Shown here in pieces: positions 23,273 to 57,762 of a DNA stretch of 64,000 bases; the stretch's first letter is position 1; each line of letters starts with the position of its first letter. The notes below the pieces were generated by a model. It was not told the origin of the DNA and did not search any database. It saw nothing but the letters and a program-made list of their open reading frames with translations. Origin of the DNA: Clostridia bacterium. Lineage in GTDB: Bacteria; Bacillota; Clostridia; Oscillospirales; Acutalibacteraceae. The DNA lies in NCBI GenBank assembly GCA_017516485.1, contig JAFXCH010000021.1:78757-142756 (forward strand), written 5' to 3'. A program made the position numbers and the translations under genes.

Positions 23273-23794
23273 TCAGCAACCGCAGTTTTTGTCAAAGGCG
23301 GGATTGCAAGCGTAGTAATTCTTACAGTCAAGCTTATCCGTAACAAAACGGAGTCCTTCACCAAATCTCTGGTAGTGGACGATTTCGCGTGCGCGGAGGA
23401 ATTTGATAACATCATTTACATCGGGGTCATCGGAAAGACGAAGAATATTGTCGTAGGTCTTTCTCGCCTTCTGTTCTGCCGCAAGGTCTTCGCTAAGGTC
23501 AGCAATGACATCGCCCGTAGACTGAATCGTCGCAGCCGTCCACGGCTCACCGCTTGCCGCAACGGGATAAATACCTGTTGTATGGTCGACGAAATATTTG
23601 TCAAAGCCCTGACGCTTGATTTCTTCAACAGAAAGATTTCTCGTAAGCTGATAAACCAGCGTGCATACCATCTCTATATGAGAAAGCTCTTCCGTGCCGA
23701 TATCGGTAAGAAGGCCTTTGAGTTCGCCGTAAGGCATTGCAAAGCGCTGGCTGAGATACCTCATTGAAGCGCCGAGCTCGCCGTCGGGTCCGCC
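23273..23794 (-). pseudogene. cotJC: cotJC 3' part (Mn-catalase-like spore coat protein), separated from its start by the prophage
   Basis: The minus strand reads GGPDGELGASMRYLSQRF, then LLTDIGTEELSHIEMVCTLVYQL and AREIVHYQRFGEGLRF, the CotJC/manganese catalase family. The di-manganese Glu/His ligands in TEELSHIEM and AREIVHYQRF are here, but the first 29 codons, with the N-terminal helix, are absent. Upstream of Gly-Gly the frame runs into the phage terminator and attachment arm. The missing start is at 57762, 34 kb away. As it stands only an internal ATG (23764) could start translation, giving a 163-residue fragment without the first metal-ligand helix. Excision would rebuild a 202-residue protein. 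Confidence 0.92.
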
Positions 23795-23810
23795 AGACTG
23801 TAAAAAGTGA
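23790..23810. other. Left attachment site (core CCGCC plus attP half-arm)
   Basis: Core CCGCC at 23790-23794, then the phage-side arm GTAAAAAGTGA (23800-23810), which is the near-perfect reverse complement of TCACTTGTTAC at 57652-57662 on the other side. To the left is cotJC coding sequence. Confidence 0.82.
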
Positions 23811-23812
23811 GA

Positions 23813-23841
23813 AAGCCGCTCATTTTGAGAATGGGCGGCTT
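23813..23841 (-). terminator. Terminator facing the left prophage end
   Basis: Arms AAGCCGC and GCGGCTT with an inner CATT/AATG pairing. On the minus strand it is followed by TTTCTCACTTTTT. It would stop leftward prophage transcription before the cotJC fragment. Confidence 0.75.
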
Positions 23842-23874
23842 AGCTTTTGCGGATTTTAGTATGTATTAGGGTTT

Positions 23875-24063
23875 TTAAGTGTTTATTTTTTCCCAGCCGT
23901 CGACTACAACTTCTTCGTTTTCGTCGAGGTGGGTAATGATTCTATATTCTCTGCCGCTGTCGCCACGGGCTGTGCCGTCGGCAAAGGCAAGTATTCTGTC
24001 TCCGTTAGACAGGACCGCTGTGTACATATATTGTTCTTTTGTGAATGAAATTTCGGTTAACAT
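23875..24063 (-). CDS. Small protein of unknown function at left prophage end
   Basis: 62 residues, starting LTEISFTKEQYMYTAVL after GGAG at a good distance. Beta-rich, acidic, no membrane segment (SNGDRILAFADGTARGDSG, HLDENEEVVVDGWEKI). No family recognised. It is the gene nearest the left attachment site. Small proteins in such positions can be excision directionality factors, but nothing in the sequence shows that here. Confidence 0.65.
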   Translation of the reverse strand: MLTEISFTKEQYMYTAVLSNGDRILAFADGTARGDSGREYRIITHLDENEEVVVDGWEKINT

Positions 24064-24146
24064 AATCTTTCTCTCCTTTTCGCTTATCGCAAAAGCCATA
24101 GTATTAATCACGACAAACCAAAAGAGGTATTATATATAAATGAAAA

Positions 24147-24169
24147 AAGCCCCGAAAAAATCGGGGCTT
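24147..24169 (-). terminator. Terminator of the sigma-factor operon
   Basis: Perfect 9-bp arms AAGCCCCGA and TCGGGGCTT with an A5 loop. The minus-strand transcript continues into a U6 run. It follows the interrupted secreted-protein gene. Confidence 0.9.
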
Positions 24170-24175
24170 GGAGAA

Positions 24176-24685
24176 TCAGAAAGTCAAGATATTTGAAACG
24201 TTGTCTATTTTCTGTACGGAGAAGAAATTCTTCTTCGCATAGTGAATACAGGTTACACGGTACTGATAACCTGAAGGTACGGTAATTACTTTCGCAAGAT
24301 TGTACATAAACTGATTGATATACAAGTCTTCGTAAACGATATAGTCAGATCACGAAGAGCTACTGTTAGCCCTACGCTGAATTACAACCTCTTTAAATCC
24401 GCTCTTTACAACATCTGCTGTACCGGTTGTTTTGCCGGCAATATACATTTTATTACCGTCTTTGCTTATTGCAATCGAATAAAAATGTATTAAACCGGTT
24501 GCACGCTCATTTTCGTTTGCAGAAAGGTTGTTTGGATTCATTGCAAGAATTGCATTAAATTCTTCATCCGTCAGCTCTACATCATACCATTGTGGCAGCC
24601 CTTCCGGCTCTGCAGCAGAGATGTTAGGCACAAGCATTACAAATGCAAGACAAATAACAAATAACGAACGAAGAGTTTTTTTCAT
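24176..24685 (-). pseudogene. Secreted protein gene interrupted by in-frame TGA
   Basis: From the ATG at 24685 (AAAGGATG upstream) a signal peptide (KKTLRSLFVICLAFVMLVPNISA) leads into a small beta-rich domain (LIHFYSIAISKDGNKMYIAGKT). After residue 111 (RRANSSSS) there is a TGA at 24350-24352. The same frame then continues for 57 sense codons (SDYIVYEDLYINQFMYNL, YRVTCIHYAKKNFFSV) to a TGA at 24176, next to the terminator. Continued coding character implies a nonsense change, possibly TGG to TGA. A truncated 111-residue product could still be made. It is third in the ECF sigma unit; function unknown. Confidence 0.7.
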
Positions 24686-24708
24686 GGTTGAATCATCCTT
24701 TGTATTTT

Positions 24709-25506
24709 TTATTTTATTGACTCGGCAATCTTCATCGCCGTATCAAAATCCGCATTCAACCCTATCTCATACTCAGTGTTTTCGTCAAGATACTTGATAT
24801 AAGATTTTTCATCATAACCAAATACCAATACATCCATTTCTTCAACCTTGATTTGCTTGAAGTATTTATGGTCACCAGGTATATTTCCGAGGCCGACACC
24901 CGGGAAATTCTCATCTTTATACTGTGTAATCCCTATGTTTCCGGAAATACCCATACTCTCATTACTGAAATCAACATAAATTGTTGTCATAAGGTCGTCT
25001 TCCTGTGAAACAACACTCTTGCTGTATTCATCACCGAGTAGCGCCTGAGGCAACACAAGCTGATCCAAGCTTTCAAGAATTAATGTATTTACAATATCGT
25101 CAGGGTTGTTATTTGCAGGTTCGGGAACGTTGTTTCTTAAATCGATTTTGAAGTGATCGTAATAAAAGGCTATAATTTTATCCGACGATTCACCGGGTAT
25201 AAGCTTTGCGCCGACAGGAATTGCAACCAAGCCGAGCAACGCTATAATAGCTGCAACAAGAAGAATCTTGCCAGCTTTTATCTTCCGTTTTGCAGGTTTA
25301 GGTTTATTTGGGGCCTCATTGGGTACCGCATTACTTTCGAGCACTGCAACACACAAGTCAACCAGGTTTGTATTCATTTCTGCGGGAGTTTTTTCAAGCT
25401 CGGCATCCATGAGACTAATTATATCGCCTTTGGTAAATTTCATTTCTTTCTCCTCAAGTATTTCCTTGAGTTTAAGGGTATCAATTTTATCAAGCAAATC
25501 TGCCAT
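24709..25506 (-). CDS. DUF4367-type membrane protein, probable anti-sigma partner
   Basis: 265 residues: an 80-residue cytosolic N-terminus (ADLLDKIDTLKLKEILEEKE), one transmembrane helix (ILLVAAIIALLGLVAIPVGA) and an extracytoplasmic domain ending YEIGLNADFDTAMKIAESIK, the DUF4367 signature. The layout is that of transmembrane anti-sigma factors, and it lies directly behind the ECF sigma gene. No classical zinc anti-sigma (ZAS) motif is present. A candidate sigma-dependent promoter (25529-25555) lies just upstream. Confidence 0.75.
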   Translation of the reverse strand: MADLLDKIDTLKLKEILEEKEMKFTKGDIISLMDAELEKTPAEMNTNLVDLCVAVLESNAVPNEAPNKPKPAKRKIKAGKILLVAAIIALLGLVAIPVGAKLIPGESSDKIIAFYYDHFKIDLRNNVPEPANNNPDDIVNTLILESLDQLVLPQALLGDEYSKSVVSQEDDLMTTIYVDFSNESMGISGNIGITQYKDENFPGVGLGNIPGDHKYFKQIKVEEMDVLVFGYDEKSYIKYLDENTEYEIGLNADFDTAMKIAESIK

Positions 25507-25528
25507 GATGAACTCCTTCTATACTATT

Positions 25529-25555
25529 TATCGTAAAATTCAAAAAAGGTAACGC
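25529..25555 (-). promoter_or_regulatory. Candidate ECF promoter, copy A
   Basis: The minus strand reads GCGTTACCTTTTTT, then ACGATAAAT 15 nt after GTTACC. It shares GCGTTAC(C/T)TTTTT with three other prophage sites (26269, 27167, 54645). It lies between the sigma gene and the DUF4367 gene, so it would drive the anti-sigma and the secreted protein. Confidence 0.5.
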
Positions 25556-25571
25556 TTTTTTTGAAAAATTT

Positions 25572-26090
25572 TTAAATTTTCTTTTTTGCAATCTTTTTTA
25601 TCTTGTTGAACAGCCTGTATTTGCGCTGCTTAACACTGTTTTCGCTCGTTGCGGTCAGCTCCGCAATCTCTTTATACGTTTTGTTTTCATGTATTATGTA
25701 ATAAAGCAACTGCTTTTCGTCAGCAGTGAGTTTCTGCTTTAGTATGCCTTTCAGCTCTTCCAAGGTTTCTTCGTCGAATATTTCGTCTACCATATCATAC
25801 TCGTACGGCAAATCTATTTGAGCATAATTAGCAACAAACGTTACTTTTGCTTTGTTTTTCTCGGTATATTTTTGCTTTATCAGATTATTGAGAGTAGCAT
25901 ACAGCCACGCCTGCGGATATTCCAGGTCGCCGTCCTGGTCAATCTTCTTACACAGGATAAGGAAAGTTTCGGAAAGCACTTCTTCCTTTTCCTCTTCTTC
26001 TCCTACCAATTTAAGATTACACACCTTACGCAGTTGCGGCTCATAAAGCTCCCACAGCTCAGCGCACAACTGCTTTTGCGATTCGTTCAT
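25572..26090 (-). CDS. ECF-type RNA polymerase sigma factor
   Basis: A 172-residue sigma-70 family protein with only regions 2 and 4. Region 2: LWELYEPQLRKVCN, then ETFLILCKKI, PQAWLYATLNNLIKQKY. Region 4: LLYYIIHENKTYKEIAELTATSENSVKQRKYRLFNKIKKI with the DNA-binding HTH. GAGGAGTT precedes the ATG. The prophage also carries four copies of a shared promoter-like element that are its likely targets. The sigma lies at the accessory end of the phage, not among the late genes. Confidence 0.88.
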   Translation of the reverse strand: MNESQKQLCAELWELYEPQLRKVCNLKLVGEEEEKEEVLSETFLILCKKIDQDGDLEYPQAWLYATLNNLIKQKYTEKNKAKVTFVANYAQIDLPYEYDMVDEIFDEETLEELKGILKQKLTADEKQLLYYIIHENKTYKEIAELTATSENSVKQRKYRLFNKIKKIAKKKI

Positions 26091-26268
26091 ACAATAACTC
26101 CTCGTTTCATTAATTTTACACTTTAAAGTAGTTATGTGTAATTATATACAATTCTGAAGAAAAATGCAAATTTTTGTTGCTTGGTGTCGATTATAAAGTT
26201 GTTTACTGTATCAATTTGTGAAAAATAAAGGTGTAAGTTTGTGCATAGTGACAAAATTCGACAAAGTA

Positions 26269-26297
26269 GCGTTACCTTTTTGAGGGTTGGATGATAT
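26269..26297 (+). promoter_or_regulatory. Candidate ECF promoter, copy B
   Basis: The plus strand reads GCGTTACCTTTTT and then GATATAT 16 nt after GTTACC. It would drive the membrane protein gene at 26358. Confidence 0.5.
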
Positions 26298-26357
26298 ATA
26301 CTTACGCGAAACAATTATACTATCTGCTTCGCTAATACATAATTGTTGGAGGAAAAT

Positions 26358-26981
26358 ATGTCCAGTTTTGAAATTATCAGTTTAGTGTTTAGTGGCTTGA
26401 ATTTGCTATCCATTTTCTTTTTTGTTGTGCAAATCGTTTTATCTAGAAAAGGTGAAAGCAACCATTATGAAGAACAGCGCAGAATAATGACGATAAACGT
26501 TATGCACCAATGGAGTTCAGGTTTAAAAAAAGAATTCAAATTAGCAGAAAAAATTGTACATGGATTTAATGAAAACAAATGTAAAGAGTTATATGATTAT
26601 AAACCTATATCTGTTAATGAACAAACACATGATTTGTTATGCCAAATGTGTTCTTTGTCGAATGACACATGCACACACTGCAAAAAAGAAAACAACAACT
26701 ATATAATTTCAGGAGTACCATTAACAGAGTTACGAGGAAATGTAACAAATTATCTTAATGCACTGGAAATAGTAGCAACGGCATGGCAACAAGGAATAGT
26801 AGATAAAGAAGTTCTGGAAACGCAATTTTCATACTTACATACACCTGGAAGCAAATCAGCTTTGCATAACTATAGGAAAGTAGCAGGTGGAGGCAACTCA
26901 TTCCCCATGCTCGATAAGTTCTACCAACAGATTGAATCAAATCACACGTTAAATGTAACACCCAAAAAAACTCAAAAATAA
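26358..26981 (+). CDS. Membrane-anchored protein of unknown function
   Basis: 207 residues with one N-terminal transmembrane helix (FEIISLVFSGLNLLSIFFFVVQIVL) and a soluble helical domain with a Cys cluster CQMCSLSNDTCTHCKK that may bind metal. The topology and helical body resemble DUF4760-like proteins, without certainty. It is the only rightward gene in the left third of the prophage and is AT-richer than its neighbours, suggesting cargo. GGAGG precedes the ATG, and a candidate sigma-dependent promoter lies 60 bp upstream. Confidence 0.7.
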   Translation: MSSFEIISLVFSGLNLLSIFFFVVQIVLSRKGESNHYEEQRRIMTINVMHQWSSGLKKEFKLAEKIVHGFNENKCKELYDYKPISVNEQTHDLLCQMCSLSNDTCTHCKKENNNYIISGVPLTELRGNVTNYLNALEIVATAWQQGIVDKEVLETQFSYLHTPGSKSALHNYRKVAGGGNSFPMLDKFYQQIESNHTLNVTPKKTQK

Positions 26982-27019
26982 AAATATGCCGTCTCCTATA
27001 TAAAAGAGACGGCATATTT
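26982..27019. terminator. Bidirectional terminator
   Basis: Perfect 14-bp arms AAATATGCCGTCTC and GAGACGGCATATTT with a 10-nt loop, AT-rich on both sides. It serves the rightward gene ending at 26981 and any leftward transcript from 27.17 kb. Confidence 0.9.
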
Positions 27020-27075
27020 ATTTTATCTATCTATCCTCATGTTAAATCACCAATTCTTTCTTTTATTTTATTATG

Positions 27076-27105
27076 TTATATAATAAGCTTTTTAGTTATT
27101 TTCAT
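27076..27105 (-). other. Nine-codon ORF with perfect Shine-Dalgarno site
   Basis: The minus strand reads AAGGAGGTGATGAAT, then ATG and MKITKKLII with stop TAA. The ribosome site is fully complementary to 16S rRNA. After the stop the same frame goes on as HNKIKERIGDLT. Together with promoter copy C and the terminator at 26982-27019 it defines a transcript of about 150 nt. It could be a tiny peptide gene or a decayed small gene. Confidence 0.35.
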
Positions 27106-27130
27106 ATTCATCACCTCCTTTATATCCTTC

Positions 27131-27167
27131 CATTATATATATTTTACTGACCATCAAAAAGTAACGC
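27131..27167 (-). promoter_or_regulatory. Candidate ECF promoter, copy C
   Basis: The minus strand reads GCGTTACTTTTTGATGG and, 30 nt from its first base, TATAATG, the same distance as in copy D. It precedes the nine-codon ORF. Confidence 0.45.
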
Positions 27168-27263
27168 ACAAAAGTTAAAAATTCACAAAAAATTAACATT
27201 TTTAAAAAGCCATCCGTATTTTTGAAAACGGGTAGCTTTTACTGTGTTTATCTATTCTGTTTT

Positions 27264-27512
27264 TTAATTCGGCTTATCGTATTTCATTGCTCTGTCGGAG
27301 TCGGAGACACCTTTGGTTGTCGGGTCGACTACGATGCCGAACTGTGCGAGCACTGCGACGAGTGCGAGGAAAAGATTCTGTACTGTGTCCTGCGTGATTG
27401 ACGGCGCAATTCCCACAAGTGCAAGCACTGAATAAACAAAGGTTATCACTACGGGGATTGTCGCAATCCAGAACGAGGGCTGTTTGAGTCTTACCTTCCA
27501 ATTGATTTTCAT
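27264..27512 (-). CDS. phiLC3-family phage holin
   Basis: An 82-residue protein matching the phi LC3 holin family: INWKVRLKQPSFWIATIPVV, two transmembrane helices (IPVVITFVYSVLALVGI and NLFLALVAVLAQFGIVV) and the C-terminal DPTTKGVSDSDRAMKYDKP. It would form membrane pores that release the endolysin encoded upstream. It is the last gene of the leftward late operon. Confidence 0.93.
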   Translation of the reverse strand: MKINWKVRLKQPSFWIATIPVVITFVYSVLALVGIAPSITQDTVQNLFLALVAVLAQFGIVVDPTTKGVSDSDRAMKYDKPN

Positions 27513-27529
27513 AATATCACTCCTTTAAA

Positions 27530-27784
27530 TTACTTTAAAATAAAACTTACGAATGCTGTTGCGGCGGCACCGATGAGGGCAAATACGAGCTTGTCCCACA
27601 TCGTACCGGGTCTGCTCTGCATCTGAATAACGCTTGCCTTCAGCTCGCCGAGGGTAACGAGTATGTTGTCGAGCTTGGTTGTGACCGTTGCAAGCTCCTC
27701 GTTAAATTGGTTTCTGCTCTTAAAAAGTGCCTCGATGTTTTCTTCTGCTTTCAGAAGGCGGTGCTCAATTTCTTCTATCGTCAT
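27530..27784 (-). CDS. XhlA-like lysis-associated coiled-coil membrane protein
   Basis: 84 residues: a coiled coil (IEEIEHRLLKAEENIEALF, ELATVTTKLDNILVTLGEL) followed by a C-terminal transmembrane helix (LVFALIGAAATAFVSFIL). This is the haemolysin XhlA layout seen in phage lysis cassettes, where it works with holin and endolysin. It sits between the two here. Confidence 0.8.
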   Translation of the reverse strand: MTIEEIEHRLLKAEENIEALFKSRNQFNEELATVTTKLDNILVTLGELKASVIQMQSRPGTMWDKLVFALIGAAATAFVSFILK

Positions 27785-27785
27785 T

Positions 27786-28430
27786 TCACTTCACACCCCC
27801 TGCGTAAGCAACAAAGCCTGCTTTGGTTGTGCCGGCGGCAGAGTATGTGACAAGGTAGCAGTTGTCGACTATTGCAACGCAGGTTGCTGATTCTCTCGCA
27901 TCAAGTGAGCCGATGCTGTTCTTGCCTGCCTTGCAGTCTGCAACAGTCTGATAGACCTTTTCGGGTGTGCTGCCGTTCTTCCACGGTTTCGCCATAAAAT
28001 CACCTTCTTTGTCGCTGAATTTCTCCCAGTTAATAACGCTGTTGGGATTGATGAGATTCTTGCCGTAACCCCAAGTTTTGGAGCTTTGCACTTCAATATG
28101 CAGATGAGCACCATAGCTATTGCCCGTGTTGCCCATTCTGCCGAGTATCTGACCGCTGACAATTCTGTCGCCGACCTTTACTGCAGGCTTATCCGCCATA
28201 TGAGCGTAAAGAATACTGCGGTTGTCGTCGGTGCGGAATACAATGTGGTTGCCGTAGCTTGAACCGCAGGAATTGACACGGGTAATCATACCATCTGTGC
28301 AGGCAACAAGTATGCGGCCAGTGTCGCATACTCTGTCAACACCTGTGTGGTAGCCGAGCTTCCAATTGCCTTTCTTCTTGTACTCTGTTGTCTGTCGAGA
28401 TATTGCCCTGAAAGGTGAACGATACATCAT
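27786..28430 (-). CDS. Endolysin, M23 (LytM-type) metallopeptidase
   Basis: A 214-residue zinc endopeptidase that would cut peptidoglycan cross-bridges at lysis. The M23 motifs are complete: YHTGVDRVCD (HxxxD), GNHIVFRTDDNRSILYAHM and GAHLHIEVQS (HxH). The C-terminal 70 residues (KPWKNGSTPEKVYQTVADC, CYLVTYSAAGTTKAGFVAY) form a separate SH3-like cell-wall-binding region. No signal peptide, as expected for holin-dependent release. Confidence 0.9.
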   Translation of the reverse strand: MMYRSPFRAISRQTTEYKKKGNWKLGYHTGVDRVCDTGRILVACTDGMITRVNSCGSSYGNHIVFRTDDNRSILYAHMADKPAVKVGDRIVSGQILGRMGNTGNSYGAHLHIEVQSSKTWGYGKNLINPNSVINWEKFSDKEGDFMAKPWKNGSTPEKVYQTVADCKAGKNSIGSLDARESATCVAIVDNCYLVTYSAAGTTKAGFVAYAGGVK

Positions 28431-28504
28431 CCGAACATCACCTCAAGAATATGAATAAAATATGCTATGTAAAGTGGAAAAACTGTAAATAATGCGTGTA
28501 TCAT
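28427..28504 (-). CDS. Small hydrophobic phage protein (25 aa)
   Basis: MIHALFTVFPLYIAYFIHIL then EVMFG and a stop. It is preceded by GAGGTGACAAT and overlaps both neighbours by ATGA, so it is translationally coupled. One transmembrane helix. It may assist the lysis cassette; no family recognised. Confidence 0.6.
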   Translation of the reverse strand: MIHALFTVFPLYIAYFIHILEVMFG

Positions 28505-28809
28505 ATTGTCACCTCACCTTCTGAATTTTTGTTTCGGGGAATAGCATAAAAGTCTCTCGGGTTTGCGACAAAATCATAATTAGCGGCACAAGTAGCCGTA
28601 TATGTTGACGGTCTAAAGCCAAGAATAATTTTGCCTGTTTCTTCCCAAGTTTCCTCGTCATATTCAGGCATATCACAGTTATTATCGTGCAGAATGTAAC
28701 CGTCGTTTGCTTTAACTGTGTACACTTTGAATACACCGTCAAGCAATTTTTTTTGCATTGTGGTATTTTCAATCAAAGTCGGATTTACATCTTCATAAGT
28801 TATAACCAT
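28501..28809 (-). CDS. Phage protein of unknown function (tail/lysis junction)
   Basis: 102 residues beginning VITYEDVNPTLIENTTMQKK, with GGAG before the ATG at 28809. Contains DGYILHDNNCDMPEYDEE and FRPSTYTATCAANYDF. Position between receptor-binding tail genes and the lysis cassette is typical of small accessory tail proteins. No domain recognised. Confidence 0.75.
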   Translation of the reverse strand: MVITYEDVNPTLIENTTMQKKLLDGVFKVYTVKANDGYILHDNNCDMPEYDEETWEETGKIILGFRPSTYTATCAANYDFVANPRDFYAIPRNKNSEGEVTI

Positions 28810-28822
28810 TTTTAACACTCCT

Positions 28823-29392
28823 TTACATAGACCAACCGATACTGAATACATAATCAATCCAAGTCATACCGCCTGGAGCGGTGTCGCCGTCGGCTTCAAG
28901 TAACGATATCACTTCATTTGATAATGTTGCTGAATAGTAATATTCGTACTCAGTCCCCATATAGTTATATAAGCCTAACAGTATACTTTTAGCACTTTCC
29001 AGAGTTAAGGTTCTCACTTGACACACGAAATTGCATTTTATCGTTTCAGGTACAACCTTTAAATTTTCAAGCTGAGGATTCCAAGTACTCGCCTCTATAC
29101 TATCTGCGGAGCTGAAGTCCAAAGTTTCAATTGTACGCAGTCTGCCGCTTCCTTGCAGCATGCCTGTCCAAGCAATCACGTTTTGAGTGTTTGAAAGATA
29201 TACGCTATTCAGCGCTGCACAAGCACTAAAAGCTCTGTTCAGAGTTTTAAAGCTCTCACAATCCAAGGTAATAGAAGTGATAGTGCTTTTACCCCAAAAA
29301 CTAACGCCTGTTATGTTATCTTTGAACCATTTTATGCCGTTTACCTTTTCGATAAGTCTTTCAACTTTACCTTTTAATGTCGCAAGGCTCAT
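28823..29392 (-). CDS. Phage tail-region protein, leucine-rich-repeat-like
   Basis: 189 residues. The middle shows irregular repeats (ITSITLDCESFKTLNRAF, LNSVYLSNTQNVIAWTGML, IETLDFSSADSIEAST) like BspA-type leucine-rich repeats, which often mediate surface binding. The start overlaps the previous stop as ATGA. A receptor-binding or tail-tip accessory role is likely but unproven. Confidence 0.65.
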   Translation of the reverse strand: MSLATLKGKVERLIEKVNGIKWFKDNITGVSFWGKSTITSITLDCESFKTLNRAFSACAALNSVYLSNTQNVIAWTGMLQGSGRLRTIETLDFSSADSIEASTWNPQLENLKVVPETIKCNFVCQVRTLTLESAKSILLGLYNYMGTEYEYYYSATLSNEVISLLEADGDTAPGGMTWIDYVFSIGWSM

Positions 29393-33057: not shown

Positions 33058-33068
33058 ATTCCGCCTCC

Positions 33069-33443: not shown

Positions 33444-33446
33444 ACG

Positions 33447-36441: not shown

Positions 36442-36468
36442 TTTTTATTCCTCCGTTATTTGTTTTTG

Positions 36469-36909: not shown

Positions 36910-36914
36910 AAAAA

Positions 36915-45716: not shown

Positions 45717-45728
45717 CTGCATACCTCC

Positions 45729-46655: not shown

Positions 46656-46659
46656 TGTT

Positions 46660-47318: not shown

Positions 47319-47351
47319 GTCTTCTCATCTCCTTAATCGTATTGGGTAATA

Positions 47352-48758: not shown

Positions 48759-48763
48759 TACCT

Positions 48764-51068: not shown

Positions 51069-52716
51069 TCTTCTTGACATCCTTTCCGATTTTGTTGGTT
51101 TTCAAATATTCGATCCACTTCTTCTCAAAAGATTCAACTTCAGGTGTACGGGCACAATTTCTCAAGCCTCTGTTTTGGCGTACCCTATATGTTTTTTCAT
51201 CAAGCTCAAGAGTAAAGAAAGGCTCATCCGGCTTGTCCGTATGACGAATAAAAAATATTGCCGTATTGCCTTGAGCGTGAGACTTAGCATATGTAGCAAC
51301 GCAATGATGAAGTGTTTTACCTTCTTTTATAAGCTGCGATTCATCCGGACAGACAAATATCATAAGCCCGGTTTCTTCATCAGCAAAAGCAAAAGGTGTG
51401 AGTTTTTCTGCTCTCTTTGCAAATGCTTCAAGCAGCTCCTTTTGCCGCTCAAATTCTGCAAGCTCTACAAGTTGGTCGTGCTTTGCGATAAGATTTTGAG
51501 GATACCTTTCAATAGGTTCTCCCGTTTTCGCAGAGCGTGTTTGCGCCATATTCCAATAGTCGAGCAAAGTTTTTATTTCTATGCGGTTTGTAAAATCGGG
51601 ATATTTTTTCTCTTGTTTTGCAATATAGTTGCATACTTTGACAAGCGATTCGCCGCTGTTCTGCACCTCTCCGTAACGTTGCCCTATTGTTTTTCGAATC
51701 AATGCTACATTATCCGGTGTAACACAGTGATCATATTCTCTGTATAAAACCAAGTCTTCAATCAGCGATAACGAAAGCTTATTTTTTATCGCTCCGAGAT
51801 AGTCCTCTTTTGAAAGCTTCAACATTTCATGCGGTCTGGCTTTTTTGAAATCAAATGCAGTTACATTTGTACTTCCGCGCCAGTTGCTGTAGTTATACCC
51901 TTTTGAGAGACTTGCAGCTTTTAACAGAGCTTCATTGACAAGGCTTGCATGTCCCTGCATTACAAGGTTTTCTATATTCGGGTGTTTTTGCCACAGTCGC
52001 AAATAGCTGACAAGTGATATTTCTTCCGTTTGTGCGAACAATTCCAGCTTGCTGTTCTCACACGACGTACCTATAATCACTTCTTCTCCGAAGGGTAACA
52101 GTGTCTCTTTTTTTACTCTACCAAGACAATCGTCAAATCTCTTGGTCTGCATCCAGCTGCTATATATCTGATAGCTGTTGAAATACCTCCGCTGACCCGA
52201 ACAGCGAATCATCTTTTTACCGTCAGCAATGTAAGCTTCATTACGGTACCAATCGAAAGATATTTTTCCTTTTTTATCTGCCTCTTTGTAAATCTCCCAG
52301 GAAATAATACACACTTTGCTTTCGATATTTTTTACTTCCGTAAAGAGGGCTCTGCCAAGTGAATATGTATTGCGATACATATCTGAAATAGATATAACCC
52401 TTACGGGTGCACCACATTCAGGGCAGAGTGTATTGCTTCCGCTGCTTATATACTCATTGGTTCTTGTGTTAAAAAAGCCATATTTTGTGCGAGACCAATA
52501 ACAGCTACCGCCACTCTTATAATCACAGTAAAAGGATCCTTTGCAGGCTGTGCAATGGCAATGCACAACTTTATTTTTCTGCTGAGTAAGCGGGTCATTT
52601 ATGTAATCGACGCTCATAACAATTGCATTGGTTTCCGCCCAATACTTTTCCGCCATATCTAAAAGCTCTTCCGAAGGAGATGAAGGCAGAATCTCGGCAT
52701 AATTTGTTTCCGGCAT
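51022..52716 (-). CDS. PcfJ-like protein
   Basis: 564 residues. The N-terminal half carries zinc-binding Cys (HCHCTACKGSFYCDYKSGG, TLCPECGAPVRVI). The C-terminal third is the PcfJ domain: GLMIFVCPDESQLIKEGKTL, HHCVATYAKSHAQGNTAIFF, DKPFFTLELDEKTYRVRQ-like. PcfJ was first seen on conjugative plasmid pCF10 and is common next to PcfK in prophages. No confirmed biochemical function. The next gene upstream is PcfK-like, so the pair is kept. Confidence 0.85.
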   Translation of the reverse strand: MPETNYAEILPSSPSEELLDMAEKYWAETNAIVMSVDYINDPLTQQKNKVVHCHCTACKGSFYCDYKSGGSCYWSRTKYGFFNTRTNEYISSGSNTLCPECGAPVRVISISDMYRNTYSLGRALFTEVKNIESKVCIISWEIYKEADKKGKISFDWYRNEAYIADGKKMIRCSGQRRYFNSYQIYSSWMQTKRFDDCLGRVKKETLLPFGEEVIIGTSCENSKLELFAQTEEISLVSYLRLWQKHPNIENLVMQGHASLVNEALLKAASLSKGYNYSNWRGSTNVTAFDFKKARPHEMLKLSKEDYLGAIKNKLSLSLIEDLVLYREYDHCVTPDNVALIRKTIGQRYGEVQNSGESLVKVCNYIAKQEKKYPDFTNRIEIKTLLDYWNMAQTRSAKTGEPIERYPQNLIAKHDQLVELAEFERQKELLEAFAKRAEKLTPFAFADEETGLMIFVCPDESQLIKEGKTLHHCVATYAKSHAQGNTAIFFIRHTDKPDEPFFTLELDEKTYRVRQNRGLRNCARTPEVESFEKKWIEYLKTNKIGKDVKKNGKRTRKSDRTAAVA

Positions 52717-52727
52717 TTCCGCTCACC

Positions 52728-53066
52728 TCACATAAAATCTGCCAGATCAATAAGATCCGGCTGTTTTGCAGGTGTAGAGTCATCAGCGGTCGGAATACCG
52801 TAAAACTCACGGATAATTCCGTCGGCAACACCTGGAGGACAACAACCACTGTTACCGCTTTTATGATTCCGGGCATATTCCTCTATTTTCCGCTCGCACT
52901 TCTCAATTGACATATCCGGGTTGTCCAGGTCCGTACTGACAATATCAGCATTGTGTGCACTCTCGCGACATATTTCTTTGAGCTGCTCGCCGACATACCA
53001 TACTGCGGTACCTTTCTTCCCCTGCTGTTGGGCTTCTATTTTGGAAATAGCATTATCTGTACTCAT
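52728..53066 (-). CDS. PcfK-like protein (family that includes AcrIIA9-type Cas9 inhibitors)
   Basis: 112 residues: KGTAVWYVGEQLKEICRES, MSIEKCERKIEEYARNH, GVADGIIREFYGIPTADDS. Arrangement and motif fit the PcfK-like family that lies beside PcfJ; anti-CRISPR AcrIIA9 was reported from the same family. Whether this copy inhibits Cas9 is unknown. The ATG at 53066 follows AAGGG; a GTG at 53081 is an alternative. Confidence 0.62.
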   Translation of the reverse strand: MSTDNAISKIEAQQQGKKGTAVWYVGEQLKEICRESAHNADIVSTDLDNPDMSIEKCERKIEEYARNHKSGNSGCCPPGVADGIIREFYGIPTADDSTPAKQPDLIDLADFM

Positions 53067-53331
53067 TTTTATTCCCTTCACCTTTCTTTGGATATGATTC
53101 TTCTTTATCCAATATTGCGAGAGCTTTTTCGATGCAGCAAACAGCTATGCCTATTTTGCACTTGCGGTACTTTATGTATATCATTGCAGCAATATAGCCT
53201 ACACGGTCACAGAATCGATTGTAAACTTTTGCCACAGCAGCAACAAACTTATCGTTATTCCATAAAGGTATACCGCATAACACTATCAGTGAACACAGTA
53301 ACAGCACGTTTGCGATTATATAGATTTTCAA
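53053..53331 (-). CDS. Small phage membrane protein
   Basis: 92 residues from a TTG at 53331 (AAAGGA upstream). KIYIIANVLLLCSLIVLCGI is a transmembrane helix, and IGYIAAMIYIKYRKCKIGIA-like sequence is partly hydrophobic. Overlaps the PcfK-like gene start. Function unknown. Confidence 0.65.
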   Translation of the reverse strand: MKIYIIANVLLLCSLIVLCGIPLWNNDKFVAAVAKVYNRFCDRVGYIAAMIYIKYRKCKIGIAVCCIEKALAILDKEESYPKKGEGNKNEYR

Positions 53332-53351
53332 TTTTAAACGTCCTTTCTTTT

Positions 53352-53531
53352 TTACAGTCTTGCAAATTCATCCGGGTGATTTGAGTAATACTCCGAAAAA
53401 GCAGCAGCCATACGCTGCCCCCAAAGAATTGCAAGCCGTTCCTGTTCCTCGGGCGGCAACTCTTTCAGGTTCTCCACTCTTCCGTCCGGATACTCAACCA
53501 TACAGGTGTATGTATACTGTTTTTTCGCCAT
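53352..53531 (-). CDS. Small phage early protein
   Basis: 59 residues: AKKQYTYTCMVEYPDGRVEN, LKELPPEEQERLAILWGQR, AFSEYYSNHPDEF. GAGGTGAGAGCA precedes the ATG at 53531. Similar short proteins occur early in many Firmicute prophages. Unknown function. Confidence 0.7.
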   Translation of the reverse strand: MAKKQYTYTCMVEYPDGRVENLKELPPEEQERLAILWGQRMAAAFSEYYSNHPDEFARL

Positions 53532-53634
53532 TGCTCTCACCTCTTTACATTTGTACTTAAATGGTTGGTTGTCTTATGATTTTTACTTGGTCATTGGTGG
53601 ATTGTGCTTTTGGTCGTTGGGGGGTGTTTTGTAA

Positions 53635-53651
53635 TTTCACGAAATGTGCAA
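53635..53651. promoter_or_regulatory. Outlying repressor operator
   Basis: TTTCACGAAATGTGCAA fits TTTCAC-N5-GTGAAA/GTGCAA, as at the main operators 250 bp away, but lies past the 3' end of the Cro-like gene. Confidence 0.55.
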
Positions 53652-53654
53652 TTT

Positions 53655-53861
53655 TTAGGTAAAAAATAAAGACTGTACTGTAGTCTTGTAATAATCGGCA
53701 AGTGCAATTTTAACATCGTCTCTCGGTATACGCTCACCACTTTCATACATAGATAGTGCTGATATGCTAATGCCCACCGCTTCAGCAACCACCTTAAGTT
53801 CGCGTTTACCTCTTAACTTACTCAAACGCTCACCAATTCTCTGAGGGTTCATTTTAAACAC
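53655..53861 (-). CDS. Cro-like XRE-family HTH regulator
   Basis: 68 residues: IGERLSKLRGKRELKVVAEA, VGISISALSMYESGERIPR, DDVKIALADYYKTTVQSLF, a standard XRE fold. AGGAGG lies eight bases before a GTG at 53861. It is the first leftward gene, divergent from the S24 repressor, the usual Cro position in the lysis-lysogeny switch. Confidence 0.88.
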   Translation of the reverse strand: MFKMNPQRIGERLSKLRGKRELKVVAEAVGISISALSMYESGERIPRDDVKIALADYYKTTVQSLFFT

Positions 53862-53885
53862 TGTTGCAGCCTCCTTTCAATCAAA

Positions 53886-53995
53886 TTTCACATATCGTGC
53901 AATTTGATATTAGCACCAATTTCACGCCGTGTCAAGCATAATTTTACAATTTGTGAAAAAACTTTCTTGACATTTCACACAAAGTGAAATATAAT
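53886..53995. promoter_or_regulatory. Lysogeny switch: operators and repressor promoter
   Basis: Operators of the form TTTCAC-N5-GTGAAA: 53886-53902 (TTTCACATATCGTGCAA), 53942-53958 (TTTTACAATTTGTGAAA), 53973-53989 (TTTCACACAAAGTGAAA) and a weak one near 53920. The rightward promoter is full consensus: TTGACA at 53967-53972, a 17-bp spacer made entirely of the third operator, TATAAT at 53990-53995. The repressor should therefore shut off its own promoter. Confidence 0.85.
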
Positions 53996-54015
53996 GCAAT
54001 TATAGAGGTGATTTT

Positions 54016-54639
54016 ATGGGCTCATTTGGTAATGTTTTGCGCAGGCTTAGAAAACAAGACGGATTAACGCAAACCGAATTAGGTAAAGCTTTAGGTCTTT
54101 CGTACAGTACAATAAGTATGTATGAAAGAGGCGAAAGAGAGCCTGACTTTGAAACGCTTGAAGTCATTGCAGATTATTTTAATGTATCTATGGACTATCT
54201 TCACGCCAAAGAATCAAAAAAAGCTTTCGCTGATAATTATATTCCTGCAACCGCTATGCTTCCAATCTACGGATGTATTCCTGCAGGCCTTCCTGCTCTT
54301 GCAGAAGAGTGTATAGAGGGTTACATGCCAACATCCGTCCCCAATCCGGACGAATATTTTTATCTGAGAGTAAAAGGCAACAGTATGGTTGGTGCAGGTA
54401 TCATTGATGGATGCAAAGTACTTATACATAAGCAAAGCACAGCTGATGACGGTCAGATCGTCGCATGCCGTGTCAATGGTGACGAAGCAACACTCAAACG
54501 CTTTAAACACCACGGCTCCGTTATTCTTCTCAAACCGGAGAACTCTGCTTACGACGAACGCATTGTACCTGCGGAAGATTTTGAAAACGGTTCCGCTCAA
54601 ATTATCGGTGTAGTTAAACAAATTGTAATTGATATGTAA
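54016..54639 (+). CDS. CI-like repressor with S24/LexA-type autocleavage domain
   Basis: 207 residues. HTH: VLRRLRKQDGLTQTELGKALG, LSYSTISMYERGEREP. The S24 domain has the self-cleavage Ala-Gly in IPAGLPALAEE, the nucleophile Ser in VKGNSMVGAGI and the Lys in EATLKRFKHH. DNA damage and RecA should trigger cleavage and prophage induction. GAGGTGATTTT precedes the ATG. Confidence 0.93.
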   Translation: MGSFGNVLRRLRKQDGLTQTELGKALGLSYSTISMYERGEREPDFETLEVIADYFNVSMDYLHAKESKKAFADNYIPATAMLPIYGCIPAGLPALAEECIEGYMPTSVPNPDEYFYLRVKGNSMVGAGIIDGCKVLIHKQSTADDGQIVACRVNGDEATLKRFKHHGSVILLKPENSAYDERIVPAEDFENGSAQIIGVVKQIVIDM

Positions 54640-54644
54640 TTTTT

Positions 54645-54681
54645 GCGTTACTTTTTTACACTTTTCGACATATATATAATG
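54645..54681 (+). promoter_or_regulatory. Candidate ECF promoter, copy D
   Basis: GCGTTACTTTTTT and 30 nt from its start TATAATG, with CGACATAT between, just like copy C. It lies between the repressor and the T5orf172 gene. A small hairpin AGCCC/GGGCT follows at 54683-54701. Confidence 0.45.
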
Positions 54682-54729
54682 AGCCCTTTTATATCGGGCT
54701 GAATTTATCCGAGAAGGGATGTATTAACA

Positions 54730-56040
54730 ATGGCAAAATGTAAAAGATGCGGCGGTGGCGGTCTTTTCCAAAAGCTTAACGCAAACGGACTTTGCAACGA
54801 ATGTGAAGTCGCTGAAATGAGCCGACAAATCTCGGAGCTTTCTTCTCCTGAGTATCAAAATCTCGAATTACTCCGCAGTAAAATTGCGCAGGCACAGAAT
54901 GAACTTGCCCAAGTGAACAAATTAGTAATGGACCAAAAGATGGAATACAACAGTGTTCATAGTGCTGTACAGCAGAAACGCAGTGAATTAATTGAGCTCG
55001 ACGACGAAATACTCCTTCAATCATTCGGACTCTATAAGCCTAAATTTGATTTTGTAACTGTTGAAAAATATAAACTTGCACTCGACCAGGTCCGTGAGCA
55101 GCAAAAAGCAATGATTAAAAATCAGACCGCTGTTACAGGTGTACAAACCTGGCAGGTAAACGGCAGTGCCGCTCAAGGCAAGAAAATGGTTAACGATATG
55201 CAGAAGCTCTTACTCAGAGCTTTCAATACCGAATGTGATGAGCTTGTTGCCAAGGTAAAATATAGCAACCTCGAAGCAAGCGTGAAACGAATTCAAACCT
55301 CCTGCGATGCAATAAGCAAGCTCGGTAAAATAATGCAGATTTCCATATCCCCCGCTTATATGAATCTGAAAATACAGGAGATTTACATAGCCTTTGAATA
55401 CGCTCAAGCAAAGCAAAAGGAAAAAGAAGAGCAAAAAGAACTTCGTGCACAAATGAGAGAAGAAGCTAAACTTCAAAAAGAGCTTGAAGCAGAGAGGCAA
55501 AAACTCATCAAAGAACAAACTCATTACGCTAATATGATTGCTAAACTCAAGGTACAATTATCCACTGACCCTGATAATACCGCCGCTCAAGCGAAACTCG
55601 CTGAATACGAGGTACAATATGCCGAAACTGAAAAAGGCATCGCCGATGTTGATTACCGTGCCGCCAACCAAAGAGCGGGATATGTTTATATTATTTCAAA
55701 CATCGGATCATTCGGTGAAGGCGTATATAAAATCGGCATGACACGCCGCCTTGATCCTACTGAGAGAGTTGATGAACTTGGTGACGCTTCCGTTCCGTTT
55801 GATTTTGATATACATGCTATGATTTTTTCAGAAGATGCACCTGCTCTTGAAGCGTCCTTGCACAAAGCATTTGAAAATAAAAAGCTCAATTTGGTGAATC
55901 ACCGCCGTGAGTTTTTCAAAGTAACTCTTGATGAAATCAAAGCAGAGGTTCGGAAAAGCCACGACAAAACCGTTGAATTTATTGACACGGCAGAAGCTGA
56001 ACAATTCAGAGTAAGCCAAAAAATGAGAAATATCAACTAA
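54730..56040 (+). CDS. DUF4041/T5orf172 (GIY-YIG-like) protein
   Basis: 436 residues. Residues 3-30 are a zinc ribbon (CKRCGGGGLFQKLNANGLC). Residues 40-320 are coiled coil. The DUF4041 region leads into the C-terminal T5orf172 domain, a GIY-YIG relative: AGYVYIISNIGSFGEGVYKI, GMTRRLDPTERVDELGDAS, HKAFENKKLNLVNHRREFF. Such genes sit in lysogeny modules and may act in phage-phage exclusion, but no mechanism is established. It lies between repressor and integrase, expressed in the lysogen. Confidence 0.85.
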   Translation: MAKCKRCGGGGLFQKLNANGLCNECEVAEMSRQISELSSPEYQNLELLRSKIAQAQNELAQVNKLVMDQKMEYNSVHSAVQQKRSELIELDDEILLQSFGLYKPKFDFVTVEKYKLALDQVREQQKAMIKNQTAVTGVQTWQVNGSAAQGKKMVNDMQKLLLRAFNTECDELVAKVKYSNLEASVKRIQTSCDAISKLGKIMQISISPAYMNLKIQEIYIAFEYAQAKQKEKEEQKELRAQMREEAKLQKELEAERQKLIKEQTHYANMIAKLKVQLSTDPDNTAAQAKLAEYEVQYAETEKGIADVDYRAANQRAGYVYIISNIGSFGEGVYKIGMTRRLDPTERVDELGDASVPFDFDIHAMIFSEDAPALEASLHKAFENKKLNLVNHRREFFKVTLDEIKAEVRKSHDKTVEFIDTAEAEQFRVSQKMRNIN

Positions 56041-56050
56041 AATAAAAAAG

Positions 56051-56077
56051 CTCCCCGGTGCTACCAACACCGGCGAG
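56051..56077. repeat. Hairpin after the T5orf172 gene
   Basis: GCTCCCCGGTG and CACCGGCGAGC pair with a 7-nt loop. U-run only on the minus strand (T6), so it could act leftward; its effect on the plus-strand gene is uncertain. Confidence 0.6.
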
Positions 56078-56141
56078 CGTAAAGCACAATCCGCCAACGA
56101 CCAAGTAAAGCAGACTGCAATATTATTTTAGCACTCTGCTT

Positions 56142-56161
56142 AAGGTTTTGCAACCTTTTTT
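56142..56161 (+). terminator. Terminator before the integrase gene
   Basis: AAGGTT-TTGC-AACCTT followed by T-run to 56161, nested inside a larger CTGCTT/AAGCAG pairing. It separates the integrase from the T5orf172 gene. Confidence 0.7.
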
Positions 56162-56225
56162 ACAAGCAGGGTGATATTTTTTGCAAAAAATCGCCCTTAC
56201 AGGAATAAATAATAGGGGTGATACT

Positions 56226-57647
56226 ATGAAAACAGCTGCAGCTTACATCCGTGTATCTGATGAACGACAGGACGAATATTCTCCCGATTCTCAGCTCAAG
56301 CTCATAAACGAATACGCAAAAAAGAACGGTTACTATGTGCCGCAGGAGCTTGTATTCTACGATGACGGTATCTCAGCCAAGACTGCAAAAAAGCGACCCG
56401 AATTTAACCGTATGATCGCATTCGCAAAAGAAAAAAGCTCTCCGTTTGAAGCAATACTCGTCTGGAAGTTCAGTCGATTTGCACGCAACCAGGAAGAGAG
56501 CATTGTATACAAAAACATTCTCCGAAAAAAAGGAGTGCAGGTTATCAGCATATCTGAACCGATAATCGATTCCCCTTTTGGCGAACTCATTGAGCGTATC
56601 ATTGAATGGATGGATGAATATTACCTTATCAACCTCTCTGCCGAGGTAAAAAGAGGTATGCTCGAAAAAGCAAGCCGAGGCGAAGCTATGTGTGCCCCTG
56701 CAATCGGCTACGACCTTGTCGGTAAGAAATACATACCAAACGAACAAGCTGTTCATGTGCGGCAAATATTCAACGACTACCTCAACGGTATGACTCTGCG
56801 GCAAATTGCTCAGAAGCACGCTGCTGCAGGTCTCAAGACACGTAGAGGCAATCCTATAGAATCCAGAGGCGTACAATACATATTATACAACCCTGTATAT
56901 ATCGGTAAAATCCGTTGGTCTACCGGTGATAAAACATTTGCCAAAAGTCGCAATTTCGACGACCCGAGTATTCTCACGGTAGACGGTGAGCATGAGCCGC
57001 TCATAGATATGGACACGTGGAATGCTGTACAGGAAAAGCTTCAAAAGAAAAAGCAAATGTACGGCAAGTATCAGCGACCGGACCAGCCCTGTGAATGGAT
57101 GCTCAAAGGTATTATGAAATGCGGCACCTGTGGTGCTTCACTTGTCCGCTCACAAGAAAACTATATTCAGTGCCACCAATACAGTAAAGGCCGCGACTGC
57201 ACTGTTTCTCATTGCATCAGCATAAAGAAGTTGGATGAAATCATAATCGAAGCTTTACAAGACTGCATCCGCACTTGCAATTTCAATATCGAGCAACGTG
57301 AAGAACCACACGATGTTATAGATTACACGGCTCTGATAAAGCGTGAGCAGGCAAAACTTGAAAGAGCAAAAGAAGCTTACCTCGCAGGCATTGATACAGT
57401 CGAAGAATACAAAGCCAATAAAAACGCTGTCACTAAGGCCATTGCCGCTATCGAAAAGCAACGTACCGAAAACACAGCGAAAAAGGTTGACCTTAAGGAG
57501 TTCTCTAAAAAGGTTGAAGAGGTGTTGCAAACAGTCACCTCCTCTACCGCCACAACTCAAGCGAAAAACGAAGCTCTCCGCTCAATTCTATCCAGGATTA
57601 CCTTCCATAAACCACAGAATTCCTTCACTTTATTTTTTTACACTTGA
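56226..57647 (+). CDS. Large serine recombinase (prophage integrase)
   Basis: 473 residues. Catalytic domain with the nucleophile Ser in AAAYIRVSDERQDEYSPDSQ, FYDDGISAKTAKKRPEFNR, LVWKFSRFARNQEES. The recombinase domain follows (IGYDLVGKKYIPNEQ, MTLRQIAQKHAAAGLKTRRG), then the zinc-ribbon domain with GIMKCGTCGASLVRSQEN and a coiled coil (REQAKLERAKEAYLAGID). It would carry out integration into and, with a directionality factor, excision from cotJC. AGGGGTGAT precedes the ATG. Its stop is only 4 bp from the attP arm. Confidence 0.95.
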   Translation: MKTAAAYIRVSDERQDEYSPDSQLKLINEYAKKNGYYVPQELVFYDDGISAKTAKKRPEFNRMIAFAKEKSSPFEAILVWKFSRFARNQEESIVYKNILRKKGVQVISISEPIIDSPFGELIERIIEWMDEYYLINLSAEVKRGMLEKASRGEAMCAPAIGYDLVGKKYIPNEQAVHVRQIFNDYLNGMTLRQIAQKHAAAGLKTRRGNPIESRGVQYILYNPVYIGKIRWSTGDKTFAKSRNFDDPSILTVDGEHEPLIDMDTWNAVQEKLQKKKQMYGKYQRPDQPCEWMLKGIMKCGTCGASLVRSQENYIQCHQYSKGRDCTVSHCISIKKLDEIIIEALQDCIRTCNFNIEQREEPHDVIDYTALIKREQAKLERAKEAYLAGIDTVEEYKANKNAVTKAIAAIEKQRTENTAKKVDLKEFSKKVEEVLQTVTSSTATTQAKNEALRSILSRITFHKPQNSFTLFFYT

Positions 57648-57651
57648 TTTA

Positions 57652-57675
57652 TCACTTGTTACCATTCAGCCCGCC
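57652..57675. other. Right attachment site (attP half-arm plus core)
   Basis: TCACTTGTTAC (57652-57662), eight bases, then core CCGCC (57671-57675). It faces the left arm GTAAAAAGTGA across the circular phage junction, giving an imperfect palindrome with CC at its centre. Confidence 0.82.
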
Positions 57676-57762
57676 GAACTGAGTTATAATTACCTGTGCA
57701 AGCTTTGCGTTAGGTGTTGCAACCTTAACGGGATACTGGAGCTTTTTTTCGTACAAAAACAT
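57652..57762 (-). pseudogene. cotJC: cotJC 5' part, truncated by the prophage
   Basis: The minus strand starts ATG at 57762 (overlapping the cotJB stop as ATGA) and reads MFLYEKKLQYPVKVATPNAK, then LAQVIITQFGG, the typical CotJC N-terminus. After Gly-Gly the frame enters phage DNA, reads LNGNK and stops. The remaining 172 codons are at 23273-23791. Only a 36-residue stub can be made in the lysogen. Confidence 0.92.

Follow-up and report, generated by a model that had tools for sequence, protein, structure and literature searches.

A prophage that splits the spore-coat gene cotJC belongs to a recurrent group of codon-31 elements with a candidate excision factor

What becomes of a spore-coat gene when a phage settles inside it: is the gene given up, or is it put back together when the cell makes a spore? 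The window, a stretch of 64,000 nucleotides from a Clostridia genome, raises this question for cotJC. We conclude that the element is probably removed when the cell makes a spore.

A prophage at codon 31 of cotJC

The first-pass annotation had proposed that a prophage splits cotJC at this locus, and a recheck of the letters confirms both its coordinates and its reading. The gene is interrupted at the codon for Gly31 by a complete-looking prophage of 33.9 kb. The 5' piece, codons 1 to 30, lies on the reverse strand at 57673..57762, with cotJB (57765..58013, reverse strand; Pfam E 2.2e-24) and cotJA (58007..58336, reverse strand; Pfam E 4.9e-14) directly upstream; cotJA is an open frame whose true start is probably internal, and a CATA-type promoter-like sequence upstream of it is conserved within the genus. 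The 3' piece runs from the third base of codon 31 to the stop (23273..23789, reverse strand) and matches Pfam Mn_catalase (E 1.2e-37). Comparison of the flanks with the uninterrupted cotJC of a genus relative (G001) places the element, 33,879 bp at 23792..57670 (33,881 bp with one copy of the core), inside the coding region of this sporulation gene. Joined, the flanks would read ...VIITQFGGPDGELGAS... and encode, as predicted, a CotJC of 202 amino acids in frame and without a stop.

The exact point of crossover has shifted slightly. CCGCC had been noted at both junctions and is indeed shared in this genome, but comparison of four genus elements narrows the shared core, in our reading, to GCGG. 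Viral relatives, through their attP sites, indicate a single GG as the crossover. On the evidence of the four elements and the centres of the viral attP palindromes, this putative core lies at 57671..57672 at the integrase-side junction and at 23790..23791 at the other (both reverse strand, which is the coding strand), and it forms the first two bases of the Gly31 codon.

The description of the prophage as complete holds up well, with PHROGs matches that span packaging, head, tail, lysis, replication, repressor, and integrase. Small and large terminase, portal, minor head, scaffold, major head, and connector proteins are all matched, as are tape measure, tail, endolysin/peptidase, replication initiation, and a CI-like repressor with HTH and S24 peptidase domains (54016..54639, forward strand; Pfam and PHROGs). 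The serine recombinase that the proposal placed beside the junction is there too: a large serine integrase of 473 aa stands at the end of the element (56226..57647, forward strand, with a longer ORF from 56181; Pfam Resolvase, Recombinase, and Zn_ribbon_recom; phrog_95 integrase), and its stop codon ends 23 bp short of the crossover core. Near the cotJC 3' piece lies cargo (24709..26090, reverse strand) with a sigma-factor-like gene (Pfam; PHROGs, sigma factor) and a gene that we read as anti-sigma-like; homologues are also found in the 4.2-kb element of G003.

Could unrelated contigs simply have been joined? The genome is a draft of 65 contigs, 90.7% complete, and a misjoin had been named as a concern. 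However, one contig of 142,756 bases spans both junctions, and the arrangement is repeated in many separate assemblies and in G063, G181, and G316 (one contig each). An artefact of assembly is therefore refuted in practice, and we give it a negligible probability.

Recurrence in other genomes

Once one short fragment had been dropped, the genomic relatives of the integrase comprised 93 distinct sequences at 98% identity, two of them at contig ends, leaving 91 with sequence past the integrase. A cotJC piece broken at codon 31 abuts the integrase in 87 of these 91, and placement in cotJC is thus not a matter of chance. By contrast, of 26 other serine recombinases in the genus (three further matches without a locus are excluded), one has cotJC within its locus, and there at another site. 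Other elements at the same place in cotJC, and uninterrupted copies of the gene in related genomes, were comparisons to which the first-pass annotation attached weight, and both exist. Among ten genus relatives, six carry an intact cotJC and no clade integrase (G001, G004, G005, G006, G007, and G009), three have the gene split, and one (G008) has neither split cotJC nor clade integrase; clade integrase and split cotJC occur together in G000, G002, G003, and G010.

Other serine recombinases break cotJC at two more sites, near residues 64 and 175, which leaves some copies of the gene in three pieces. Both ends are available for 13 elements, and in all 13 the frame runs on across the join at codon 31. 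The rejoined gene is 198–205 aa long in nine of them and is broken again further downstream in four (G002, L096, L151, and L132). In the L132 3' piece, likeness to CotJC ends after residue 147, which matches none of the three sites. Split cotJC shows low dN/dS (0.008 for G000 against G001, 0.026 for G003 against G005), to which we give little weight since it mostly reflects the time preceding insertion, and the G002 values are inflated by a joined frame that breaks again at residue 175. Dispersed CotJC tails also occur and were considered as possible gene-restoring elements, but an ORF listing read by eye gave no recombinase in their surroundings.

Some of the codon-31 elements are far smaller than a phage. 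Mini-elements of 2.0 kb (L096), 3.2 kb (L147), 4.2 kb (G003), and 4.7 kb (G316) were found, together with one of 4.5 kb in the record of a named isolate, Faecalispora jeddahensis JCD (L165), and those of 8.6 and 9.9 kb in G063 and G181, which are one shared element with integrases 91% identical. A PHROGs scan of 20 cargo proteins from the mini-elements and L151 gave no structural, packaging, or lysis family. What the mini-elements retain is the integrase, the att sites, and a small gene; by ORF calls, the 2.0-kb element consists of the integrase and this small divergent gene only.

We lean, with some reserve, towards seeing cotJC as a landing pad with three sites (at about codons 31, 64, and 175) for different serine recombinases. 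Its occupants would include full phages at one extreme and, at the other, an integrase with its excision factor in 2.0 kb; the L151, L096, and G002 hosts would have two elements each. If this is true, the smallest element would in effect be an intron at the DNA level, which the mother cell removes, and those three hosts would have to excise two elements per sporulation for one coat enzyme.

A candidate excision factor and its upstream motif

Which gene might direct removal? Our candidate recombination directionality factor is the small gene at 53352..53540 (reverse strand), whose product of 59–62 aa belongs to a family of unknown function (phrog_26314); we read it as the excision factor from its co-occurrence with the integrase and its presence in mini-elements. 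Among genomic elements with 6 kb or more of upstream sequence, 37 of 40 have the family; for viral loci with that much sequence upstream the figure is 39 of 58, and none was found in the other 19. All four genus elements have it (G010 through its longer record, L092). The gene is divergent from the integrase in 93 of 93 cases. Its profile finds no match in G063 and G181, where a protein of 93–96 aa is linked only via ~25% identity to the G316 copy. The small protein has no convincing relative in PDB or Pfam and no similarity to SprB. A 78-aa ORF at 23875–24111, in a sprB-like position beside the att site, was dropped as excision factor in favour of the phrog_26314 family; of six sources compared, only G003 has it again.

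A mother-cell-type −10-like motif, CATAAGACA, stands 47 nt upstream of the start codon (ATG) of the candidate factor (53570..53578, reverse strand), and motifs of this type are enriched in the family. The search was for a sigma-E/K-like −10 alone, in a textbook and a refined pattern. The textbook motif, applied when the upstream DNA of the window and of G003 had already been inspected, precedes the small gene in 29 of 93 cases (mean 5.5 and maximum 11 after shuffling) and the integrase in 8 of 93 (7.6 after shuffling). The refined motif, framed after some of these sequences had been seen, precedes 26 of 93 small genes, compared with 51 of 1216 for the other mechanical ORFs (p 6e-13); the remaining 67 small genes lack it. 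Among the integrases, 4 of 93 have it. With near-duplicates removed, the textbook motif is found before 24 of 87 small genes (shuffled 6.0, maximum 15) against 9 of 87 integrases, and the refined motif before 24 of 87 (shuffled 4.0, maximum 11) against 4 of 87. A sigma-E/K promoter before the integrase was also considered and rejected, as none is seen upstream and the motif has no enrichment there. The same type of motif lies upstream of SPbeta sprB, an annotated excision factor.

Developmental excision, its alternatives, and known systems

Taken whole, the following account strikes us as probable. A clade of large serine integrases that is widespread in gut Clostridia would use codon 31 of cotJC as its dedicated attachment site, and the window's temperate phage would have entered by recombination of attP with attB, crossing over at GG, as the comparison supports. 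In vegetative cells cotJC would stay split. During sporulation, a sigma factor of the mother cell may switch on the small phage gene in that cell, whose product, as directionality factor, would act with the integrase to excise the element precisely and, to judge by the sequence, restore the 202-aa CotJC, while the element would be retained in the forespore line. In other lineages, decay of the phage would have left mini-elements that keep the integrase, att sites, and small gene.

It might instead be that these are ordinary temperate phages and islands for which a dispensable, conserved coat gene is a safe attB; lysogens would then be cotJC-negative, and excision would follow SOS induction only. 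The window prophage does look complete and does carry a CI-like S24 repressor, the host encodes another Mn catalase (36% identical), which means that CotJC may be dispensable, and according to two papers C. difficile or B. subtilis lacking such proteins had no marked coat defect. However, elements without phage structural genes still keep the integrase, att sites, and small gene; the 5' pieces of cotJC stay open from their start codon as far as Gly31 in all 55 loci (near-duplicates kept in the count) and the 3' pieces to the C-terminus or to the two later break sites in 59 of 64; and the sigma-E/K-type motif precedes the small gene, not the integrase. We therefore consider such a use of cotJC quite unlikely. 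It is also unlikely that the small divergent gene belongs to the early lytic genes and has another role, and that excision, perhaps still developmental, depends on another factor or on the integrase alone. Its place next to cro/CI-like genes in the window would suit that role, as would the lack of a sequence link to any known factor, but it is the sole non-integrase gene found in the 2.0-kb element and is kept in other mini-elements.

Developmental excision would have good company, and the idea that cotJC is host to a skin- or SPbeta-like intervening element is supported. SPbeta in spsM of Bacillus subtilis, for which regulated excision is reported in the available part of PMC4191935, is likewise a phage in a sporulation gene with a terminal serine integrase, a small excision factor, and a motif of like type before the factor gene; the host gene differs, and its integrase is 24% identical to the window's over 328 residues. 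The window phage thus does not have the SprA/SprB-type recombination genes by which SPbeta phages are recognised. For the skin element in sigK of C. difficile, PMC5025042, in its available part, describes a constitutive recombinase and a small, sigma-E-controlled, mother-cell factor that limits excision; the cotJC elements show the same division of motifs between factor and recombinase genes, in another host gene. The gin element in gerE of Bacillus cereus ATCC10987 resembles the cotJC mini-elements in its lack of phage genes, but as described in the part of PMC5595907 at hand it is 28.6 kb long and has three serine recombinases and an additional factor, whereas they have one recombinase and go down to 2.0 kb. 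The yin element in yabG of Clostridium botulinum is prophage-like, with an excised circle, and also sits in a sporulation gene, though a different one (PMC10747680, available part). Finally, phi027 of C. difficile has an attachment site adjoining a coat Mn-catalase (CotJC-family) gene; the available portion of its description places it beside that gene and does not mention a split.

Is cotJC then a new host gene, as had been claimed? The interrupted genes named in the available part of PMC10747680 are sigK, spsM, spoVFB, gerE, and yabG, with cotJC not among them, and spoVR is also named in that of PMC5025042. Our search of the open-access literature found no description of a cotJC-splitting element, and within that scope the claim stands. 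It is strengthened beyond its first form by mini-elements without phage structural genes, by a candidate excision factor, and by the sporulation-type motif before it. New to the phenomenon are the host gene, the integrase clade, and the candidate factor family. As far as the sources available to us go, gene-intervening elements have so far been documented in a few genes from species of the Bacillus and Clostridium type; our survey suggests that they are common in uncultured gut Clostridia. With the minimal two-gene form, it becomes directly testable why bacteria retain elements in sporulation genes.

The att sites may prove useful in themselves. The element ends bear att-like palindromes, recognised by sequence only, and viral relatives hold the joined attP: 36 of 45 without cotJC have a palindromic attP, with GG or CC at its centre in 30 of the 36 (23 of 26 in an earlier, selected viral set). 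The predicted attP sites of the window phage and the G002 phage were absent from the viral collection searched. A palindromic crossover permitting both orientations is ruled out because the viral centres are GG or CC, and orientation is thus written in attP. On the integrase tree, orientation is near random, with 26 changes against a shuffled mean of 29.3, and these natural attP variants of both orientations may serve as recombinase tools.

An integrase clade specific to one site in cotJC

In the window, cotJA, cotJB and codons 1-30 of cotJC (minus strand) end at 57673, and the rest of cotJC lies at 23789-23273 on the same strand. The first-pass annotation claimed that the two pieces rejoin in frame and that a complete prophage separates them. 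Both claims hold: the joined frame spans 202 aa and is stop-free, and the intervening 33.9 kb resembles a complete temperate phage by PHROGs. The integrase is of the large serine type (473 aa), its stop codon 23 bp off the inferred core. Ahead of it, an inverted repeat GGGTGAT...ATCNCCC (56169-56226) is conserved, also at the equivalent place in G002 and G010, two genomes of the same genus; this repeat could form an alternative pairing with the ribosome-binding site, GGGTGAT.

Both kinds of relative that had been proposed for a search were found. cotJC is uninterrupted (202 aa) in 6 of the 10 genus relatives, including G001, whose gene is 98% identical, and split in three (G002, G003 and G010); one relative has no cotJC match. 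Within the genus, relatives of the window's integrase (“the clade,” 71-80% identical) are confined to exactly the split-cotJC genomes, where they directly adjoin the cotJC 5' piece.

The clade is specific for its integration site in cotJC. In the wider family, where few candidates were scored per genome, at least 53 of 398 genomes have a clade integrase (E <= 1e-80), and loci were obtained for 30 matches. Within 400 bp beyond the 3' end of the integrase gene, cotJC was present in 4/4 own-genus loci and in 23 of 26 other family loci (two without it, one at a contig end). Among the best 80 loci of each collection, cotJC adjoins the integrase in 75 from genomes (three not, two at contig ends) and 17 from viruses (45 not, 18 at contig ends); the locus sets overlap. 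When genomic integrases are collapsed at 98% identity, with one short fragment left out, 87 of 93 adjoin cotJC, four do not and two run off the contig. By tblastn, the break falls at cotJC residues 22-31 in nearly all loci; the exact codon was verified in 55 5' pieces and in elements with both ends. Among other serine recombinases of the genus (29 matches, 26 with a locus), one has cotJC there, at a different site. We infer that the hosts are a family of gut Oscillospirales-type Clostridia.

The window comes from a draft genome (65 contigs, 90.7% complete; its own contig, number 34, is 142,756 bases). Misassembly as a general cause of the splits is counted against by three wider-family genomes with such elements, G316, G063 and G181, each of which is listed as one contig. 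The novelty of cotJC splitting is judged against the open-access literature, including PMC11222575, PMC12122855, PMC10747680, PMC5595907 and PMC5025042.

The crossover and element orientation

The only sequence common to the four genus elements at the break is GCGG. A joined attP, its core flanked by palindromic arms, is seen in many of the 45 viral loci that lack cotJC. A first automatic search of these loci assigned GGNGG to 9, CCNCC to 13 and “neither” to 12, the other 11 having no good palindrome; the exact palindrome centre was GG or CC in 23 of 26 (the 22 GGNGG/CCNCC loci and four chosen from “neither”). In a second search, run without selecting on the core, 36 of the 45 loci had a palindrome, centred on GG in 15 and CC in 15 (30/36), the remainder being TG (2), CA, TT, GA and AA. 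The two halves of the window attP, compared by eye, appear to mirror one another about the core; the predicted attP of neither the window phage nor the G002 phage was found in the viral collection.

As GG forms bases 1-2 of the Gly31 codon, codon and frame survive recombination with any third base. Whether attP carries GG or CC sets the orientation of the element, and orientation changes 26 times on the integrase tree, versus 29.3 with shuffled labels, so flipping is frequent. Closely related integrases sit in opposite orientations within cotJC at L155/L156 and at L111/L112/L115.

A candidate excision factor and its putative promoter

A small gene of the window (53352-53540) belongs to phrog_26314, a family without assigned function. 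The family is present in 4/4 genus elements and divergent from the integrase in 93/93 copies. Seeded with the G003 copy, an iterative profile search detected it in 50 of the 90 elements whose integrase has at least 400 bp of upstream sequence; many of those lacking a match have just ~1.5 kb of flank. With at least 6 kb upstream, it was found in 37/40 genomic and 39/58 viral loci, and not in L121, L130, L143 and 19 viral loci. In a Pfam scan, no family was matched by more than one member, with a best E of 0.02; the closest PDB match scored E 0.07, and similarity to SPbeta SprB is not detectable. Known recombination directionality factors lack significant mutual similarity, according to PMC5025042, so dissimilarity to SprB is no argument against the small gene. 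We regard it as a candidate excision factor.

Across the genus, the region upstream of cotJ conserves a CATA-type -10 and, upstream of it, AC, as expected for mother-cell sigma factors. Scored on the -10 element alone, the textbook sigma-E/K pattern occurs upstream of cotJA in 24/46 (shuffled mean 4.3), the small gene in 29/93 (5.5) and the integrase in 8/93 (7.6). A refined pattern, framed after the textbook output, matched 26/93 small genes, 4/93 integrases and, among the remaining mechanically called ORFs at these loci, 51/1216. With near-duplicates removed, small genes versus integrases gave 24/87 versus 9/87 (textbook) and 24/87 versus 4/87 (refined). The motif reads CATAAGACA before the small gene in the window, CATAGGACA in G002 and CATAACACA in G003; as a yardstick, SPbeta sprB has CATATAATA just ahead of its start. 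This split, with the integrase not enriched, agrees with the skin element of C. difficile, whose factor is sigma-E-controlled and whose recombinase is constitutive, as described in PMC5025042.

Mini-elements and further sites in cotJC

Mini-elements also occur. The smallest, at L096 (2.0 kb), comprises the integrase and one divergent 56-aa gene, with no further ORF of at least 55 aa except one starting inside cotJC; other genes separate cotJB and cotJC there. L147 has 3.2 kb. The G003 element (4.2 kb) carries sigma-factor-like and secreted-protein genes, L165 (4.5 kb; record titled Faecalispora jeddahensis strain JCD) an alpha/beta hydrolase, 1-Cys peroxiredoxin and TspO (Pfam), G316 (4.7 kb) cupin and PdaC/DUF3298 proteins (Pfam), and L151 (8.2 kb) what we read as transketolase-like and PTS-like cargo. 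G063 (8.6 kb) and G181 (9.9 kb) carry one common element (integrases 91% identical). A PHROGs scan of 20 of their cargo proteins (L096 1, L147 2, G003 3, L165 3, G316 2, L151 4, G181 5) matched none to structural, packaging or lysis families; the hits fell in sigma factor, esterase, peroxiredoxin, regulator and unknown-function families, plus a transposase in G181.

Sigma-factor-like, anti-sigma-like and secreted-protein genes are common to the window prophage (24176-26090) and the G003 mini-element (L028, 6304-8276), the secreted-protein gene being in two pieces in the former and one in the latter. At L165 (7039-9487), the peroxiredoxin and TspO protein are carried within a catalase gene.

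cotJC is also broken elsewhere. Among 64 cotJC 3' pieces adjoining a clade integrase (not de-duplicated, classed by alignment end with no recombinase required), 28 reach the C-terminus, 24 end at ~residue 64, seven at ~175, two at a contig end and three elsewhere. At L151, cotJC is cut into three: a 2.9-kb element lies at residue 64 and carries a second serine recombinase (Pfam). The third site of L096 holds, in addition to the 2.0-kb element, an 8-kb element with another serine recombinase. Both site 1 and site 3 are occupied in G002, with a serine recombinase at the second break; the C-terminal piece of its cotJC is unplaced. For the site-2 recombinase, relatives adjoin a cotJC break in 7/30 loci (32 matches), and for the site-3 recombinase in 11/20 (35 matches), those without cotJC being mostly more distant. 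On viral contigs L318, L319 and L320, the cotJC match ends near residue 65-69, and these are probably prophages at the second site. The 3' piece at L132 diverges from CotJC beyond residue 147, which is none of the three sites.

Stray CotJC C-terminal coding ends, starting near the third site, occur in the window (21327-21369, minus strand), at three places in G002:C7, and in G007:C16, G006:C6 and G007:C15. Five of them (the three in G002, G007:C16 and G006) share the 5' extension TTTGATTGTAACGG(T/A). These ends are possibly solitary relics of attachment sites.
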